Below, in pieces: positions 1-17,036 of a stretch of DNA of 64,000 bases. How positions within the stretch are numbered: position 1 is the first letter of the stretch; each line of letters opens with the position of its first letter. The position numbers were made by a program, and so were the translations under genes. The notes under the pieces are model-generated. The model was not told the origin of the DNA. It saw only the letters and a list, made by a program, of their open reading frames with translations, and made no database searches. Origin of the DNA: Geothrix edaphica (GTDB lineage Bacteria; Acidobacteriota; Holophagae; Holophagales; Holophagaceae); contig NZ_BSDC01000002.1 in assembly GCF_030268045.1 (NCBI RefSeq), positions 62,001-126,000 on the forward strand. Direction: 5' to 3'.

Positions 1-1772
1 CGGACAGCACCGGGGAGAACGCTTCCTACGACTGCCTCTGGGACTCCACCGGCGTGCTGACGCCGGACGGCTACGTCGTGAAGATGCGCATCCCCTACAG
101 CAGCCTGCGCCGGCGGCCCGGCGACTGGGCCTTCCGCATCCTGCGCATCATCCCCCGGGAGCGGCGCTACGGCATCTCCTGGCCCCGTATGAGCAAGGAC
201 GTGCAGTGCGACATCTGCCAGATGGCCCGGGTCTCCGGCGCCCCGGTGGACAAGCCGGGCTCGCCCTTCCTGGTGATCCCCTTCGCCACCTACAGCCGCA
301 CCCAGTCGCTGGAGACGGACCCGGTCGCACCGGTGGAATCCAAGGCCCGCCTGGGCATGGATGTCCGCTACGCCACCACGGCCCTGACCTTCGAGGGCAC
401 CTACCGCCCCGACTTCGCCACGGCGGACGCTGACGTGGACCCGCTCCAGATCAACAGCCGCTTCAGGGTGTTCTACCCCGAGCGCCGGCCCTTCTTCCTG
501 GAGGGCATGGACCTGCTCTCCCCGCCTTCCGCCCAGCGGCAGTTCTTCAGCCGCTCCATCCAGAGCCCCCTCTACGGCCTCAAGGCCTCGGGCCAGGGCT
601 CCCTCGCCAGCTGGACCGTGCTCCACGCCAAGGACGACGACGGTGGCCTGATGCTGAGCGCCAATGGCGCCCGGGGCGTCGAGGGGCTGCCCACCCGCGA
701 CACGGCGGCGGCCCTGCGCTTCCAGCTGGATGGCCGGGGCTCGGGCCTGTCCTTCCTCGGCACGGACAAGCGCCTGCAGGGGGGGCCGGACGCCGCCGGT
801 GGGCTCATCGGCGGCCAGAGCGGAGGCCTCTACCTGGATCAGTATCTGGGCTCCGAGTTCCACTTCATCGGCAGCGCCATGACCGCCACCTCGCATCTCC
901 CCCAGGCCGACGGCAGCCTCCTCTCCCAGCGCGGCACCTCCACCTCCGCCGAGCTGGACTGGAACACCCGCCACTGGTTCGCCTACGCCATCAACCAGAC
1001 CACCAGCCCCGGCCTCGTCCTGGTGTCGGGCTTCACGGACCTCCGGGGCTACCGCCAGCAGACCGCCGCCATCGGGTGGCAGGGCAACTGGAACGGCGGC
1101 CGGTTCTCCCAGGCGAACGCCAGCCTGCGCGGGCGGCGCCTCTCCTGGTGGGACGGCAACCCCTTCGACCGCGCCGTGGGCCTGAGCGCCTATGTGGAAA
1201 CCGCCGACCGCTGGGCCTGGAGCGTGGACTGGGACATCGCGGGGCGCACCTGGGCCAACGATGAGGTGACCTCCAACGCCACCCGCAACATCAACATGGC
1301 CCTGAGCTGGAAGAAGTTCAGCTGGGCCCAGATGCTGGCGCGGGTCGTCCAGGGGCGCACCATCGACCTCGCCACCGGCGCCCCGGCCCGCCTCCACACC
1401 ACCAGCTTCAGCTCCCACGGGGCCCTCGGGGACGTGTGCTATGACCTGACGGCGCAGAAGACGGAGCTGAACCGCGAGTCCGACGACCTCCTGCTCGTGC
1501 GGGCCCGGAAGCTGACCACCACGGCCACCTACCAGATGCCGCGCTTCTTCTACCTGAAGGCCCAGGCCTTCGTGGTGCGGTACGACGGCTCGGAGATCGA
1601 CGGCGTGGACAAGTTCCTCAAGGCCTTCCTGGGCTGGCAGCCCAATGCCTTCACCAACGCCTATGTGGGCTGGTCCGGCCAGCGGCGGCGGGATCCCCTC
1701 GCCATCGCCCCCGCCGAGCGGATGGTGGAGCGGGGGCTCTTCGCCAAGCTGGCCTGGGCCATGCAGTTCTGA
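1..1772 (+). CDS. DUF5916 / CBM9-like outer-membrane-type protein, 5' truncated
   Basis: The reading frame is open from base 3, so the gene enters from the left and its true start lies outside the window; the GTG at 54 is internal. The visible N-terminal part (TPDGYVVKMRIPYSSLR) looks like the end of a family-9 carbohydrate-binding-like beta-sandwich. It is followed by the DUF5916 hallmark FYPERRPFFLEG near residue 145 of the visible part. The rest alternates short amphipathic strands with aromatic residues, as in a beta-barrel, and ends in a C-terminal Phe (AMQF), typical of outer-membrane proteins. Function is unknown in the family; barrel topology and outer-membrane location are inference. 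Confidence 0.8.
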   Translation, partial: DSTGENASYDCLWDSTGVLTPDGYVVKMRIPYSSLRRRPGDWAFRILRIIPRERRYGISWPRMSKDVQCDICQMARVSGAPVDKPGSPFLVIPFATYSRTQSLETDPVAPVESKARLGMDVRYATTALTFEGTYRPDFATADADVDPLQINSRFRVFYPERRPFFLEGMDLLSPPSAQRQFFSRSIQSPLYGLKASGQGSLASWTVLHAKDDDGGLMLSANGARGVEGLPTRDTAAALRFQLDGRGSGLSFLGTDKRLQGGPDAAGGLIGGQSGGLYLDQYLGSEFHFIGSAMTATSHLPQADGSLLSQRGTSTSAELDWNTRHWFAYAINQTTSPGLVLVSGFTDLRGYRQQTAAIGWQGNWNGGRFSQANASLRGRRLSWWDGNPFDRAVGLSAYVETADRWAWSVDWDIAGRTWANDEVTSNATRNINMALSWKKFSWAQMLARVVQGRTIDLATGAPARLHTTSFSSHGALGDVCYDLTAQKTELNRESDDLLLVRARKLTTTATYQMPRFFYLKAQAFVVRYDGSEIDGVDKFLKAFLGWQPNAFTNAYVGWSGQRRRDPLAIAPAERMVERGLFAKLAWAMQF

Positions 1773-1797
1773 AGCGGGGGAAGGCTACACTGGTGGG

Positions 1798-2472
1798 ATG
1801 CTGCAGTTCCGCAACCTGACCCGCGCCTATGAACTCGGCGGCGAGCGCGCCGGCGTGTTCGGCGTATCGCTGGCGGTGCCGAAGGGCTGCCTCGCCGTCC
1901 TGGCGGGGCCCAGCGGCAGCGGCAAGACCACCCTGCTCCAGCTGGCGGGCCTGCTGGATCAGCCCGACGAGGGCGCCGTCCTTCTGAATGGACAGGAAGT
2001 GTCCAGCCTTTCCGAGCGGGAGCGCTGCGATCTGCGCCTGCGGCACCTGGGTTTCGTGTTCCAGGCCTTCAACCTTGTGCCCGTGCTGTCCGCGCTGGAG
2101 AACGTGATGCTGCCCCTGCACCTCCAGGGCATCGCCGAAGCCGAAGCCCGCCGCCGCGCCGAGCGGGCCCTTGACCGCGTGGGCCTCGCAGACCGCCTGC
2201 ACCACCGCCCGGGCCAGCTCAGCGGCGGCCAGCAGCAGCGCGCCGCCATTGCCCGTGCGCTGGCCCCGGATCCCCTGCTGGTGCTCGCCGACGAACCCAC
2301 CGCCAGCCTCGACCATGCCCACGGCGGGCCGCTCATGGACCTCATGGCCGAGCTGGCCGCCGAGCGCGGCGCCACCTTCCTCGTGGCCAGCCACGATCCC
2401 GCCGTCATCGCGCGGGCCAACCACGTCTTCCGCCTCGCCGACGGCAGGCTCATCGAGGAGGAGCACCTGTGA
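1798..2472 (+). CDS. ABC transporter ATP-binding protein (LolD/MacB type)
   Basis: A 224-residue ABC ATPase. Walker A is GPSGSGKTT at residues 37-45, the signature is LSGGQQQR, and Walker B is VLADEPTASLD, which is typical of the LolD/MacB/FtsE branch that pairs with FtsX-type permeases. An in-frame start 150 bases upstream would overlap the previous gene; the ATG at 1798 begins the conserved first strand (MLQFRNLTRAY) and is preferred. The stop overlaps the GTG of the next gene by 4 bases, so the two are almost certainly co-translated. The substrate cannot be told from sequence; lipoprotein or drug export are the usual roles. Confidence 0.9.
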   Translation: MLQFRNLTRAYELGGERAGVFGVSLAVPKGCLAVLAGPSGSGKTTLLQLAGLLDQPDEGAVLLNGQEVSSLSERERCDLRLRHLGFVFQAFNLVPVLSALENVMLPLHLQGIAEAEARRRAERALDRVGLADRLHHRPGQLSGGQQQRAAIARALAPDPLLVLADEPTASLDHAHGGPLMDLMAELAAERGATFLVASHDPAVIARANHVFRLADGRLIEEEHL

Positions 2473-14864: not shown

Positions 14865-15386
14865 CTACTGCTGCGGCTTGGCCTTGACCCGCTGGTAGTC
14901 GTCACCTTGGAATTTCAGGGGCTTCTCCACGGGAATGACCAGGTAGGGTTCGGCTTTCCGCCCCCCCTGCTTCGATGCCAACTGAAGCTGCTGCTGCACT
15001 TCCTCCTTCGCCTGGCGCTCCCTGGCCACCTCGGCGGCGTGGGAGGCCGCCATGCGCGTGAGTTCCTGCTCCTGGCGCTGGGCCTGGAGGGCCAGGCCAT
15101 CCGCGCGGTGCTTCTGCTGGAAGCCCCAGGTCCCCAGGCCGGCCAGGACGGCCAGCAGAGGCAGGGCCGCGGCGGCCAGCAGGCCCCAGGTGGGCCGCTT
15201 GCGCTCCGTGCGGCGGCGGCGCTGGGCCTCCCGGCGCAGGTCGTCGGCCAGGGCGGCCAATTCGGGACTGGGCGCAGCAGGGGCGCTGGCGGCCACGGAC
15301 CCGAGGCCCAGGAGGTCGCGGAGTTCGGCCCGCAACTGGACATCCTCGGCGGGTTCGAAACGCCGAGCGGGATCAGACCAGGACAT
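14865..15386 (-). CDS. Single-pass membrane protein, candidate anti-sigma factor
   Basis: A 173-residue protein of unknown family. About 70 N-terminal residues are cytoplasmic and charged, then a basic stretch (RRRRTERKR) precedes one membrane helix (LLAAAALPLLAVLAGLGTW, about 75-95). A coiled-coil-prone, Gln/Glu/Ala-rich segment (about 100-140) and a Pro/Lys tail follow. Its start lies 14 bases inside the end of the sigma-factor gene, so the two are translationally coupled. Position, topology and coupling fit an anti-sigma factor that holds the sigma factor at the membrane, but I see no zinc-binding HxxxCxxC anti-sigma motif. Function is therefore inferred from context. Confidence 0.65.
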   Translation of the reverse strand: MSWSDPARRFEPAEDVQLRAELRDLLGLGSVAASAPAAPSPELAALADDLRREAQRRRRTERKRPTWGLLAAAALPLLAVLAGLGTWGFQQKHRADGLALQAQRQEQELTRMAASHAAEVARERQAKEEVQQQLQLASKQGGRKAEPYLVIPVEKPLKFQGDDYQRVKAKPQQ

Positions 15387-15888
15387 GCACGCCTCCAGTG
15401 GGATTGAGCTGATCTTTGAGTTGGGCCTTGGCCCGGTGGATGCGGGTTTTCACGGTGGCCTCGGGGATGCCGAGGATATCCGCGATCTCCCGGATGGAGA
15501 GGCCCTCGACCACGAAGAGCCACAGGGCCTCGCGGAAGGTGGGCGACAGCAGGCGCATGCGCTCCCGGACCTCCTGGTTCAGCACCTGGTCATCGGCGCC
15601 ACCGGCCAGGCCGGGCTCGGACACGGCTTCCAGGCTGAGGTTCTGGTTCTTCATGGGGCGGCGCTCGGTCAGGGAGAGGGTGCGGACGGTGCCATACAGG
15701 AAGGCGGTGGGGTGCTCGACCCGCACCTCCCGCTGCATGAGGATGACGAAGGCCTCCTGGGCAATGTCTTCCGGGAAGGTGGCCCCATAGCGGCGGGCAT
15801 AGCTCACCAGCCGGGGATAGAGCTCGGCGAAGGCGCCGTGGAAGGCCTCCTGGCTGCCGAACGGGGTTTCCTGGTGGGACTGCTCCAT
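15373..15888 (-). CDS. ECF-type RNA polymerase sigma factor
   Basis: A 171-residue sigma-70-family factor. Region 2 is visible as FAELYPRLVSYARRYG...PEDIAQEAFVILMQ, and region 4 as LSPTFREALWLFVVEGLSIREIADILGIPEATVKTRIHRAKAQLK, the normal two-domain ECF layout. The frame stays open upstream to 16101, but that stretch runs through an inverted-repeat element and has no sigma-like features; the ATG at 15888 (MEQSHQET) gives the usual ECF length. It overlaps the putative membrane partner gene by 14 bases. The target regulon is unknown. Confidence 0.88.
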   Translation of the reverse strand: MEQSHQETPFGSQEAFHGAFAELYPRLVSYARRYGATFPEDIAQEAFVILMQREVRVEHPTAFLYGTVRTLSLTERRPMKNQNLSLEAVSEPGLAGGADDQVLNQEVRERMRLLSPTFREALWLFVVEGLSIREIADILGIPEATVKTRIHRAKAQLKDQLNPTGGVHVLV

Positions 15889-15939
15889 GCACGGACTCCA
15901 ACGCTCTAGGATGCCCCATCCGGAGGGGAAGTTCCGGGT

Positions 15940-16213
15940 TAGGAGCCCGTCCAAGTAAAGGGTGGGGGCTGCACTGGGGCGCCAGCCGAGGGAGGCGAGG
16001 AAGGCGACGAAGGCCTTGGTGGGTCCAAGGTCGAGGAGCCTGACAGGGCCTCCCGACGGCTGCCACCCCAGCCCGAAGGGTTGATGGCAAAGGGCCTCCA
16101 TGCTGCGTTACCGGGCTTGAACGGTGAACCCACACCGCCCTGCGCCCGCTTCCTTGCCTGGAAGCCCTTTGCCATCAATGCAGCCCCTATCCATTACTTG
16201 GACGGGCTCCTAG
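15940..16213. repeat. Nested inverted-repeat element
   Basis: This fills most of the 335-base gap between the sigma-factor and uracil-glycosylase genes. Outer arms at 15940-15973 and 16180-16213 begin with the same 20 bases (TAGGAGCCCGTCCAAGTAA plus flanking match) in inverse orientation, then diverge for about 7 bases and match again over GGGCTGCA. Inner arms at 16081-16107 and 16152-16178 share TTGATGGCAAAGGGC exactly and more imperfectly. On the right side inner and outer arms abut; on the left 107 bases separate them. No transposase gene and no clear target-site duplication. It could be a MITE-like or extragenic palindromic element that carries the promoters of both divergent genes. Confidence 0.75.
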
Positions 16214-16223
16214 GCTGGAAGCC

Positions 16224-17036
16224 ATGGACGAGCCTCTCCGAGCCTGGCGCGACACCCTGGAGGACCTGGGGGTGATGGGTCTCGTCCGTGAACCGGTGGC
16301 CGCCGCTCCGGAGCCGACCCTCCCGGCCGCCGCCCGCCCCGCCCCGCGGCCAACCCCGGCGCCCCGGCCCGGTCCAGCCCCCGCGCCTGCGCCTGCCGCG
16401 GCCTATGCCAAGCCCACGGATGCCATCGGTTGCCCGCCACCGGGGGCCGTGGCGGCCGCAGCCACCCTCGCGGACCTGGAGCGGGCCATCCAGGGCTGCC
16501 TGGCCTGCCCCCTGGGGCCCGGCCGCCTGAAGTTCGTCTTCGGCGAAGGCGACCCGGGGGCCCGGCTCATGTTCGTGGGCGAGGGCCCCGGCCGGGACGA
16601 GGACCTCCAGGGCCGGCCCTTCGTCGGCAAGGCCGGCGACCTGCTGGACAAGATGATCGTCGCCATCGGCATGAAGCGCGAAGAGACCTACATCGCCAAC
16701 GTGGTGAAGTGCCGCCCCCCCGACAACCGCACCCCCAGCCCCGACGAGGCCCGCGCCTGCCTCGGCTACCTCCACCGCCAGATCGAGCTGATCCGGCCCG
16801 CCGTCATCGTCACCCTGGGCGCCACCCCCCTGCGTGAACTGGTGGGCATCAGCGACGGCATCACCAAGGTCCGGGGCCAGTGGAAGCGCGTGCAGGTCGG
16901 CGGCCGGGAGATCCCCGTCATGCCCACCTTCCACCCCGCCTACGTCCTGCGCCAGTACACCCAGGACGTCCGCCGCGCCGTGTGGGAGGACCTGAAAGCC
17001 GCGAAGGAGTGGGTGGATAAGGCCGCCGAAGCCTGA
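16224..17036 (+). CDS. Uracil-DNA glycosylase, family 4 (Fe-S)
   Basis: A 270-residue base-excision-repair enzyme that removes uracil from DNA. After a short N-terminal helix and a Pro/Ala-rich linker (about residues 28-65) comes the family-4 core. The first iron-sulfur cysteines are in GCLACPLG, the catalytic-site motif is FVGEGPGRDED (equivalent to GEAPG), and more cysteines occur in VVKCRPPDNRTPSPDEARAC. The late motif MPTFHPAYVLRQ supplies the conserved His. The N-terminal extension with linker resembles the phage SPO1 DNA-polymerase-related group of this family. The ATG at 16224 sits directly at the edge of the inverted-repeat element. Confidence 0.92.
   Translation: MDEPLRAWRDTLEDLGVMGLVREPVAAAPEPTLPAAARPAPRPTPAPRPGPAPAPAPAAAYAKPTDAIGCPPPGAVAAAATLADLERAIQGCLACPLGPGRLKFVFGEGDPGARLMFVGEGPGRDEDLQGRPFVGKAGDLLDKMIVAIGMKREETYIANVVKCRPPDNRTPSPDEARACLGYLHRQIELIRPAVIVTLGATPLRELVGISDGITKVRGQWKRVQVGGREIPVMPTFHPAYVLRQYTQDVRRAVWEDLKAAKEWVDKAAEA

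Follow-up and report, generated by a model that had tools for sequence, protein, structure and literature searches.

The locus between the sigma-factor gene and the uracil-DNA glycosylase (UDG) gene of Geothrix edaphica raises the question of what kind of DNA separates the two genes, how it arrived there, and why it can fold so extensively upon itself. In the window, which is the whole 64,000-nucleotide stretch of DNA that was analysed, the two genes are divergently transcribed. The interval 15889–16223 represents the entire intergenic spacer, while the element covers only 15940–16212, between the two gene starts, and its right end lies approximately 11 bp before the UDG start codon. The spacer would be approximately 65 bp long without the element and is approximately 335 bp long with it. 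Profile analysis agreed with the names given to both genes in the preliminary description, with PF08281, PF04545, and PF07638 all above their cut-offs in the sigma-factor gene and PF03167 in the UDG gene. The spacer had also been called a shared promoter region, which holds for its position between two divergent starts; a scan of the element for sigma-70 promoter and terminator consensus sequences found nothing. The sigma-factor reading frame remains open into the element (window 15373–16101, minus strand, 242-aa ORF), and the start of the sigma protein could be miscalled and lie inside the element; most relatives carry no element at that site.

Layout and predicted fold of the element

The interval 15940–16212 is one complete, gene-less element composed of an outer stem and two long hairpin arms, with a very small CCC-NNN-GGG hairpin separating the arms (Table 1). 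The nested inverted repeats reported earlier could be confirmed: the outer arms match over 34 nt with 91% identity (45 nt with 84% identity in a longer version, 15932–15976 and 16176–16220), and the inner arms (16081–16103 and 16156–16178) match over 23 nt ungapped with 91% identity and extend further in the predicted fold. As had been described, the inner and outer arms meet directly on the right (16178/16179), whereas 107 bases (15974–16080) lie between them on the left. The arm model R1 matched the window at 15967–16080 (+) and 16072–16185 (−), and arms A and B are diverged reverse complements of each other.

Table 1. Coordinates of the element, its parts, and the neighbouring genes in the window, with the interrupted UDG gene of a relative
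Feature	Position	Strand	Basis or remark
Sigma-70 type (ECF-like) factor gene, outside the element	15373–15888	−	Pfam
Left target-site duplication copy, TTAG	15939–15942	.	Comparison with empty sites in relatives
Whole two-armed palindromic element	15940–16212	.	273 bp including TA on each side
Left terminal inverted repeat (outer stem), starting TAGGAGCCCGTCCAAGTAA	15940–15973	+	
Arm A, long imperfect hairpin with the AGGAA...TGAC internal-loop motif of the family	15974–16071	+	Arm model and folds
Central mini-hairpin CCC-GAA-GGG, three pairs	16072–16080	+	Sequence, alignment, and folds
Arm B, long hairpin; its base is the inner arms of the preliminary description	16081–16178	−	Arm model
Right terminal inverted repeat (outer stem)	16179–16212	−	
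Right target-site duplication copy, CTAG	16210–16213	.	Comparison with empty sites in relatives
UDG gene, outside the element	16224–17036	+	PF03167
UDG gene of a relative, interrupted by an intein-like insert	L099 (G008:C8:76600-79200), 369–2234		

RNA folding of the minus strand (273 nt) gave −187.5 kcal/mol, whereas shuffled sequences averaged −120.1 (sd 4.8), corresponding to a z of −14, and the plus strand folded with DNA parameters gave a z of −10.6; in both cases 0 of 200 shuffled sequences folded as well. The Rfam covariance models produced no match at gathering score in the window, the best match at the element being far below gathering, and at ten other element loci they produced nothing except a neighbouring riboswitch. 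A known RNA (tRNA, riboswitch, or other) was therefore rejected for the element. A fluoride riboswitch (RF01734, 58.4 bits; L255, 262–322, minus strand) lies approximately 80 bases from the element in genome G180.

Copies and distribution of the family

The spacer used as a query against its own genome revealed dispersed copies, approximately 70% identical in the interior. The 11 copies first extracted were 273–276 bp long and had complementary ends, and every fold contained the outer stem and two arms. The 5' arm is related to the reverse complement of the 3' arm, a common internal loop (GCNAGGAA...TGAC) is present, and internal-loop motifs and loop nucleotides are conserved in both arms of the family alignment. 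An arm covariance model of 115 positions, with only 18 pairs, gave 36 matches in the genome of the window among 150 candidates scored; these formed 18 abutting plus/minus pairs, and no solo arm was found among the candidates.

A DNA search with one element as the query detected the family in 24 of 25 genomes of the genus (own genome included) and, weakly, in 1 of 16 others. Arm-model matches were present in 41 of 47 genus genomes (own included), with a highest count per genome of at least 79. The search of the genome and its relatives suggested in the preliminary description thus showed that the arms are not single-copy and that most congeners carry copies; the 18 arm pairs, the 41 genomes, and the empty sites described below bear out the idea of a mobile, amplified extragenic element. 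A gapped pattern of one arm subtype, run against 84,980 species genomes, recovered 71 stretches; seven contigs of a single Acidobacteria MAG are among them, and the titles of all the others name Geothrix or Holophagaceae. In a scan of the phylum, at least 37 of 297 genomes contained arm matches, 20 of them within the genus; 12 of the 17 remaining genomes were searched again, and the stretches of 10 were read. Nine elements from genomes outside the genus were folded, and eight had the outer stem and two arms, including L267, which has no central hairpin; the best fold of L268 (from G282) was a single long hairpin, not two arms. The arm model was passed by only one arm in G282, G297, and G279. 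A like architecture and length could nevertheless be observed in several Acidobacteriota families. Plasmid and phage collections contained no match to element L005.

The 297 arm matches in the collected loci were resolved into 133 pairs and 31 unpaired arms, several of which lay close to the end of a locus or had a weakly matching partner. Removal of duplicates and of copies too close to a locus end left 90 elements. Among these, 88 could be anchored at ends matching in at least 12 of 14 bases, at least four of them at a doubtful position (L003, L104, L160, and L178). The ends of L236, L240, L242, and L249 could not be read.

Insertion and target sites

BLAST comparison of the UDG neighbourhoods of 27 relatives revealed an element in only one, G006. 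Empty sites, which the preliminary description had proposed to look for, were found at the locus: among 18 sigma/UDG spacers read, 15 were short (62–68 bp), one was 117 bp long, and two were filled (own genome and G006). CTAG was present at the insertion site in 9 of the 15 short spacers, six times as GGG-CTAG-GCTGG, and the other short spacers had CTAC, ATAG, or ATAC. In the window, TTAG on the left and CTAG on the right of the element represent the target duplication, and the CTAG of the empty sites indicates an insertion at CTAG with duplication. The G006 element sits at the same spot, and its ends are 80% identical to the window copy over 25 bases, while the cores are only approximately 73% identical in either orientation; the two may represent one old insertion or two separate ones.

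IS5-family elements make short target duplications such as TNA. The same TNA was present on both sides in 19 of the 88 anchored elements, the others being decayed or ambiguous, and on the left side in 52 of 88, counts that were read with an anchoring rule favouring TNA flanks where several anchors fitted. Elements lay exactly on the stop codon of a called gene in 18 of 88 cases, whereas 194 of 3016 non-genic TNA triplets (6.4%) did so. This preference is weak (p = 0.03 once the rate is doubled to allow for two ends), and gene calling was crude.

The UDG gene of G008, a Geothrix relative, is split in frame by an intein-like insert of approximately 350 aa (Table 1). The UDG profile matches this gene in two stretches, and the insert scored 64 bits with LAGLIDADG_2 and 29 bits with Intein_splicing, the latter below the cut-off of 35.8. 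This insertion of approximately 1 kb had been considered as a matching IS and was rejected as such, being an intein.

Terminal repeats and candidate transposases

The terminal sequences vary among copies, with end classes GAGTGCCTAAC, GAGCTCATAAC, GAGGTCGTATC, GGAGCCTGTCC, GGGTCTGTTTTC, and others, and the common end is TNA followed by GAGTGCCTAACAAAACCCC. A search of 13 genomes for a full-length IS bearing exactly the common end AGAGTGCCTAAC recovered pairs of element size, larger variants, remnants, and single ends, but none of the pairs was as long as an IS; the movers were therefore looked for by protein. An isolated AGAGTGCCTAAC without a partner repeat was seen directly after an apparent stop codon in L220 and in L223, and these may be remnants or chance occurrences. 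The R box of integron attC sites resembles GCCTAAC...GTTAGGC. An attC site was considered, as the common end contains GCCTAAC...GTTAGGC, and was rejected because other end classes do not keep it.

The ends of four element classes match those of IS5-family IS with TNA or CTAG targets. The Geothrix IS of G043, approximately 870 bp long, has TTA next to GAACGGCTAACAAAACCC at one end and GGTAGTATTGTTAGGCACTC next to TTA at the other, comparable to the common element end. One end of an IS in G011, TTA next to GAGCGCCTCACAA, equals the end of element L100. Seven copies of an 867-bp IS in G019 have CTAG next to GGCCTGTTTTCAAAGTC and a CTAG duplication, and their end equals that of elements L007 and L010 of the genome of the window. 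In G164, which belongs to another genus, one IS end (TTA next to AGGGCTTATCCCTAAATAA) equals the right end of element L254 over 20 bases, L254 being from G188 of the same genus as G164. Both IS ends were seen in G043 and G019 only and one end each in G011, G054, and G164; decayed right ends of the G043 type were present in G048 and G018. Three transposase fragments were tested, and all scored above the NF033580 (IS5 family) cut-off. The match of four end classes to IS5-family ends indicates that the elements are MITEs, probably moved in trans.

Among the IS in hand, none matched the end class of the window copy itself (GGAGCCCGTCCAAG). No IS5-type transposase could be detected in the genome of the window (G000) by PF01609 or by two protein queries, and these queries, fragments included, matched only 5 and 9 of the 47 genus genomes. 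These results do not support present-day mobilisation in that genome, and its copies seem to stem from a transposase that was active in the past. PF01609 matches were found in 2 of 6 genomes in the set including G000 and in 7 of 13 further genomes; most of these loci had other ends, and one (L279) had a matching end. In G018, nine of 14 copies shared one end class, two had another, and the remaining three were unread, a sharing of ends that is as expected from bursts.

Conservation of pairing and structural variants

Pairing was counted in 76 of the 90 elements (266–296 bp), of which 30 were left after an 88% identity filter. In these 30 non-redundant elements, the outer stem was 90% Watson-Crick paired, against 29–37% for slid partners and a mean of 58% for shuffled ones, and the arms were 88% paired, against 24–32% and 74%, respectively; these contrasts are inflated by relatedness and by a structure derived from the same alignment. 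At least two Watson-Crick types occurred in 22 of 28 outer-stem pairs and in 33 of 76 arm pairs. Across nine pairs of same-site elements, the outer stem showed 9 double changes keeping Watson-Crick pairing against 25 single changes. L006/L177 contributed four double and three single changes, and L001/L045, which may be two separate insertions, contributed four double and three single changes plus one double change to G-T; the remaining pairs had at most one double change each.

Mispairs in the outer stem were G-T in 60 cases and A-C in 66, a balance to be expected if selection acts on the RNA of neither strand. For the arms, G-T to A-C mispairs numbered 240 to 25 (arm 1) and 115 to 65 (arm 2), and without four nearly fixed G-T pairs 33 to 25 and 48 to 65. 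As the arms mirror each other, the motif on each strand sits only in its 5' arm.

At one site, which is the only known case, the core is inverted. Element L075 of the genome of the window has ends and flanks similar to those of L022 and L171, with the core in the opposite orientation (96–98% identical when inverted, 69–71% otherwise); a second insertion in the opposite orientation would look similar. Length variants include a 314-bp form with an extra hairpin in one arm and forms of approximately 408 bp (L208–L212) in five genomes (G001, G007, G041, G047, and G017), in which one arm contains a branched insert and the other an additional hairpin. Remnants of approximately 50–82 bp (L216, L217, and L221) keep both ends and have lost the core, and L217 has the same immediate flanks as the 314-bp copy L213 of another genome. 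The family is unlike usual MITEs in that a common fold persists despite differing ends, nested hairpins were gained, and the core was inverted once.

Origin of the element and explanations for the fold

Judged from these sequence comparisons, the element is very probably a copy of a large, approximately 270-bp non-autonomous MITE family moved in trans by IS5-family transposases. It is short, has no transposase of its own, and carries terminal inverted repeats, a target-site duplication, and empty counterparts (CTAG at the window locus). Ends matching an autonomous element are found in four classes of the family, the class of the window copy not among them, and no IS5 transposase was found in the same genome (G000). 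A transposase now absent from this genome would have bound the matching ends of a copy, which would then have been inserted at CTAG between the sigma-factor and UDG genes. Less firmly, the palindrome may pair with itself as DNA during replication or transposition, as a hairpin on a single strand or as a cruciform; such pairing could flip or homogenise the arms and may bring the two element ends together.

For the persistence of the fold we lean towards such a cause at the DNA level, because the outer stem contains about as many G-T as A-C mispairs and the mirror layout places the motif in the 5' arm of each strand; absence of any function is nearly as likely. A functionless fold, which is quite conceivable while falling short of probable, would go back to an inverted duplication, with well-matched founders of bursts and occasional template switching (quasi-palindrome correction) keeping the complementarity. 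Arms that are diverged reverse complements, the single end class of most G018 copies, and the excess of single over paired outer-stem changes would all follow from such a history. It accounts less well for the like architecture and length across several families and for inserted modules that are themselves hairpins, and correction alone would not preserve the conserved internal-loop motifs.

A bolder form of DNA-level selection, which we regard as unlikely, would make the family a phylum-wide structure parasite of IS5-family transposases, with a two-arm DNA core selected for its fold and terminal repeats swapped to follow different transposases. Further hairpin modules would be taken up, and arms would be flipped and homogenised in place through a real cruciform or single-strand hairpin. 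If so, structure more than sequence would be what is inherited.

It is improbable that the element is a structured non-coding RNA or RNA-level regulator dispersed by chance, its fold being selected in a transcript. The strong fold (z of −14) is what such an RNA would display, as are pairing levels higher than in the slid and shuffled controls, the conservation of internal loops and loop nucleotides in the two arms, and the four nearly fixed G-T pairs of the arms. Set against these are the mirror arms, which limit the motif on each strand to the 5' arm, the G-T to A-C balance of the outer stem, and the lack of an Rfam family and of promoter or terminator consensus at the element; its ends, duplications, and empty site are features of transposable elements. 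Less credible still is a REP/REPIN-type palindrome moved by a RAYT (Y1) transposase: the element recalls it in having two inverted hairpins and many extragenic copies, while its 270-bp length, its IS5-type ends with long terminal inverted repeats, and its TNA/CTAG duplications do not fit. The preliminary suggestion that a symmetrical element had received a 107-base insertion on the left, or had lost symmetry, can be dismissed on the evidence of the family alignment, as the asymmetry appears only under strict arm matching, where the less perfect pairing of the left arm makes it look like a gap, and the 107 bases are the second arm in 11 of 11 folds and all 18 abutting arm pairs.

With the family read as MITEs moved by IS5-family transposases, one element family accounts for numerous palindromes scattered over the genomes of Geothrix and related Acidobacteria, and its likely movers can be named. 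The copies also provide a natural, many-copy set of long palindromes that suits testing whether bacterial MITE folds are selected, as DNA or as RNA, because pairing is kept with different letters and one core is inverted.

Comparison with known systems

Among the titles and abstract openings covered by the literature search, no description of the element family was found. REP/REPIN sequences are hairpins of 20–40 bp that carry a tetranucleotide tag and are mobilised by RAYT; the element differs from them in size and ends. Bcr1-type repeats of Bacillus cereus and ERIC-type large palindromes are likewise short dispersed repeats with secondary structure; by their usual descriptions they differ in size, ends, and hosts. 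In the T-shaped terminal repeats of AAV, an outer stem encloses two internal arms that can switch orientation (flip/flop). This comparison concerns only how such a structure works, as the elements here are chromosomal bacterial inserts, and no relationship is claimed.

IS5-family IS (NF033580 group) share the ends and target sites of four element classes but are about three times as long as the elements, which lack a transposase. The closest likeness is to MITEs: these too are small and lack a transposase, their terminal inverted repeats equal IS ends, they are flanked by a short target duplication, and they occur as scattered copies with a stable predicted fold. According to a review, MITEs are thought to come mainly from IS, are typically AT-rich, and have transcripts that form stable stem-loops (PMC10969869). 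The Geothrix core is, in contrast, rich in GC and unlike the interior of the single IS with which it was compared, the element has two mirror arms joined by a mini-hairpin, and one architecture occurs with several IS5-type end sequences across several families of a phylum. The family is thus a new, unusually structured branch of a known kind of mobile DNA, the MITEs.
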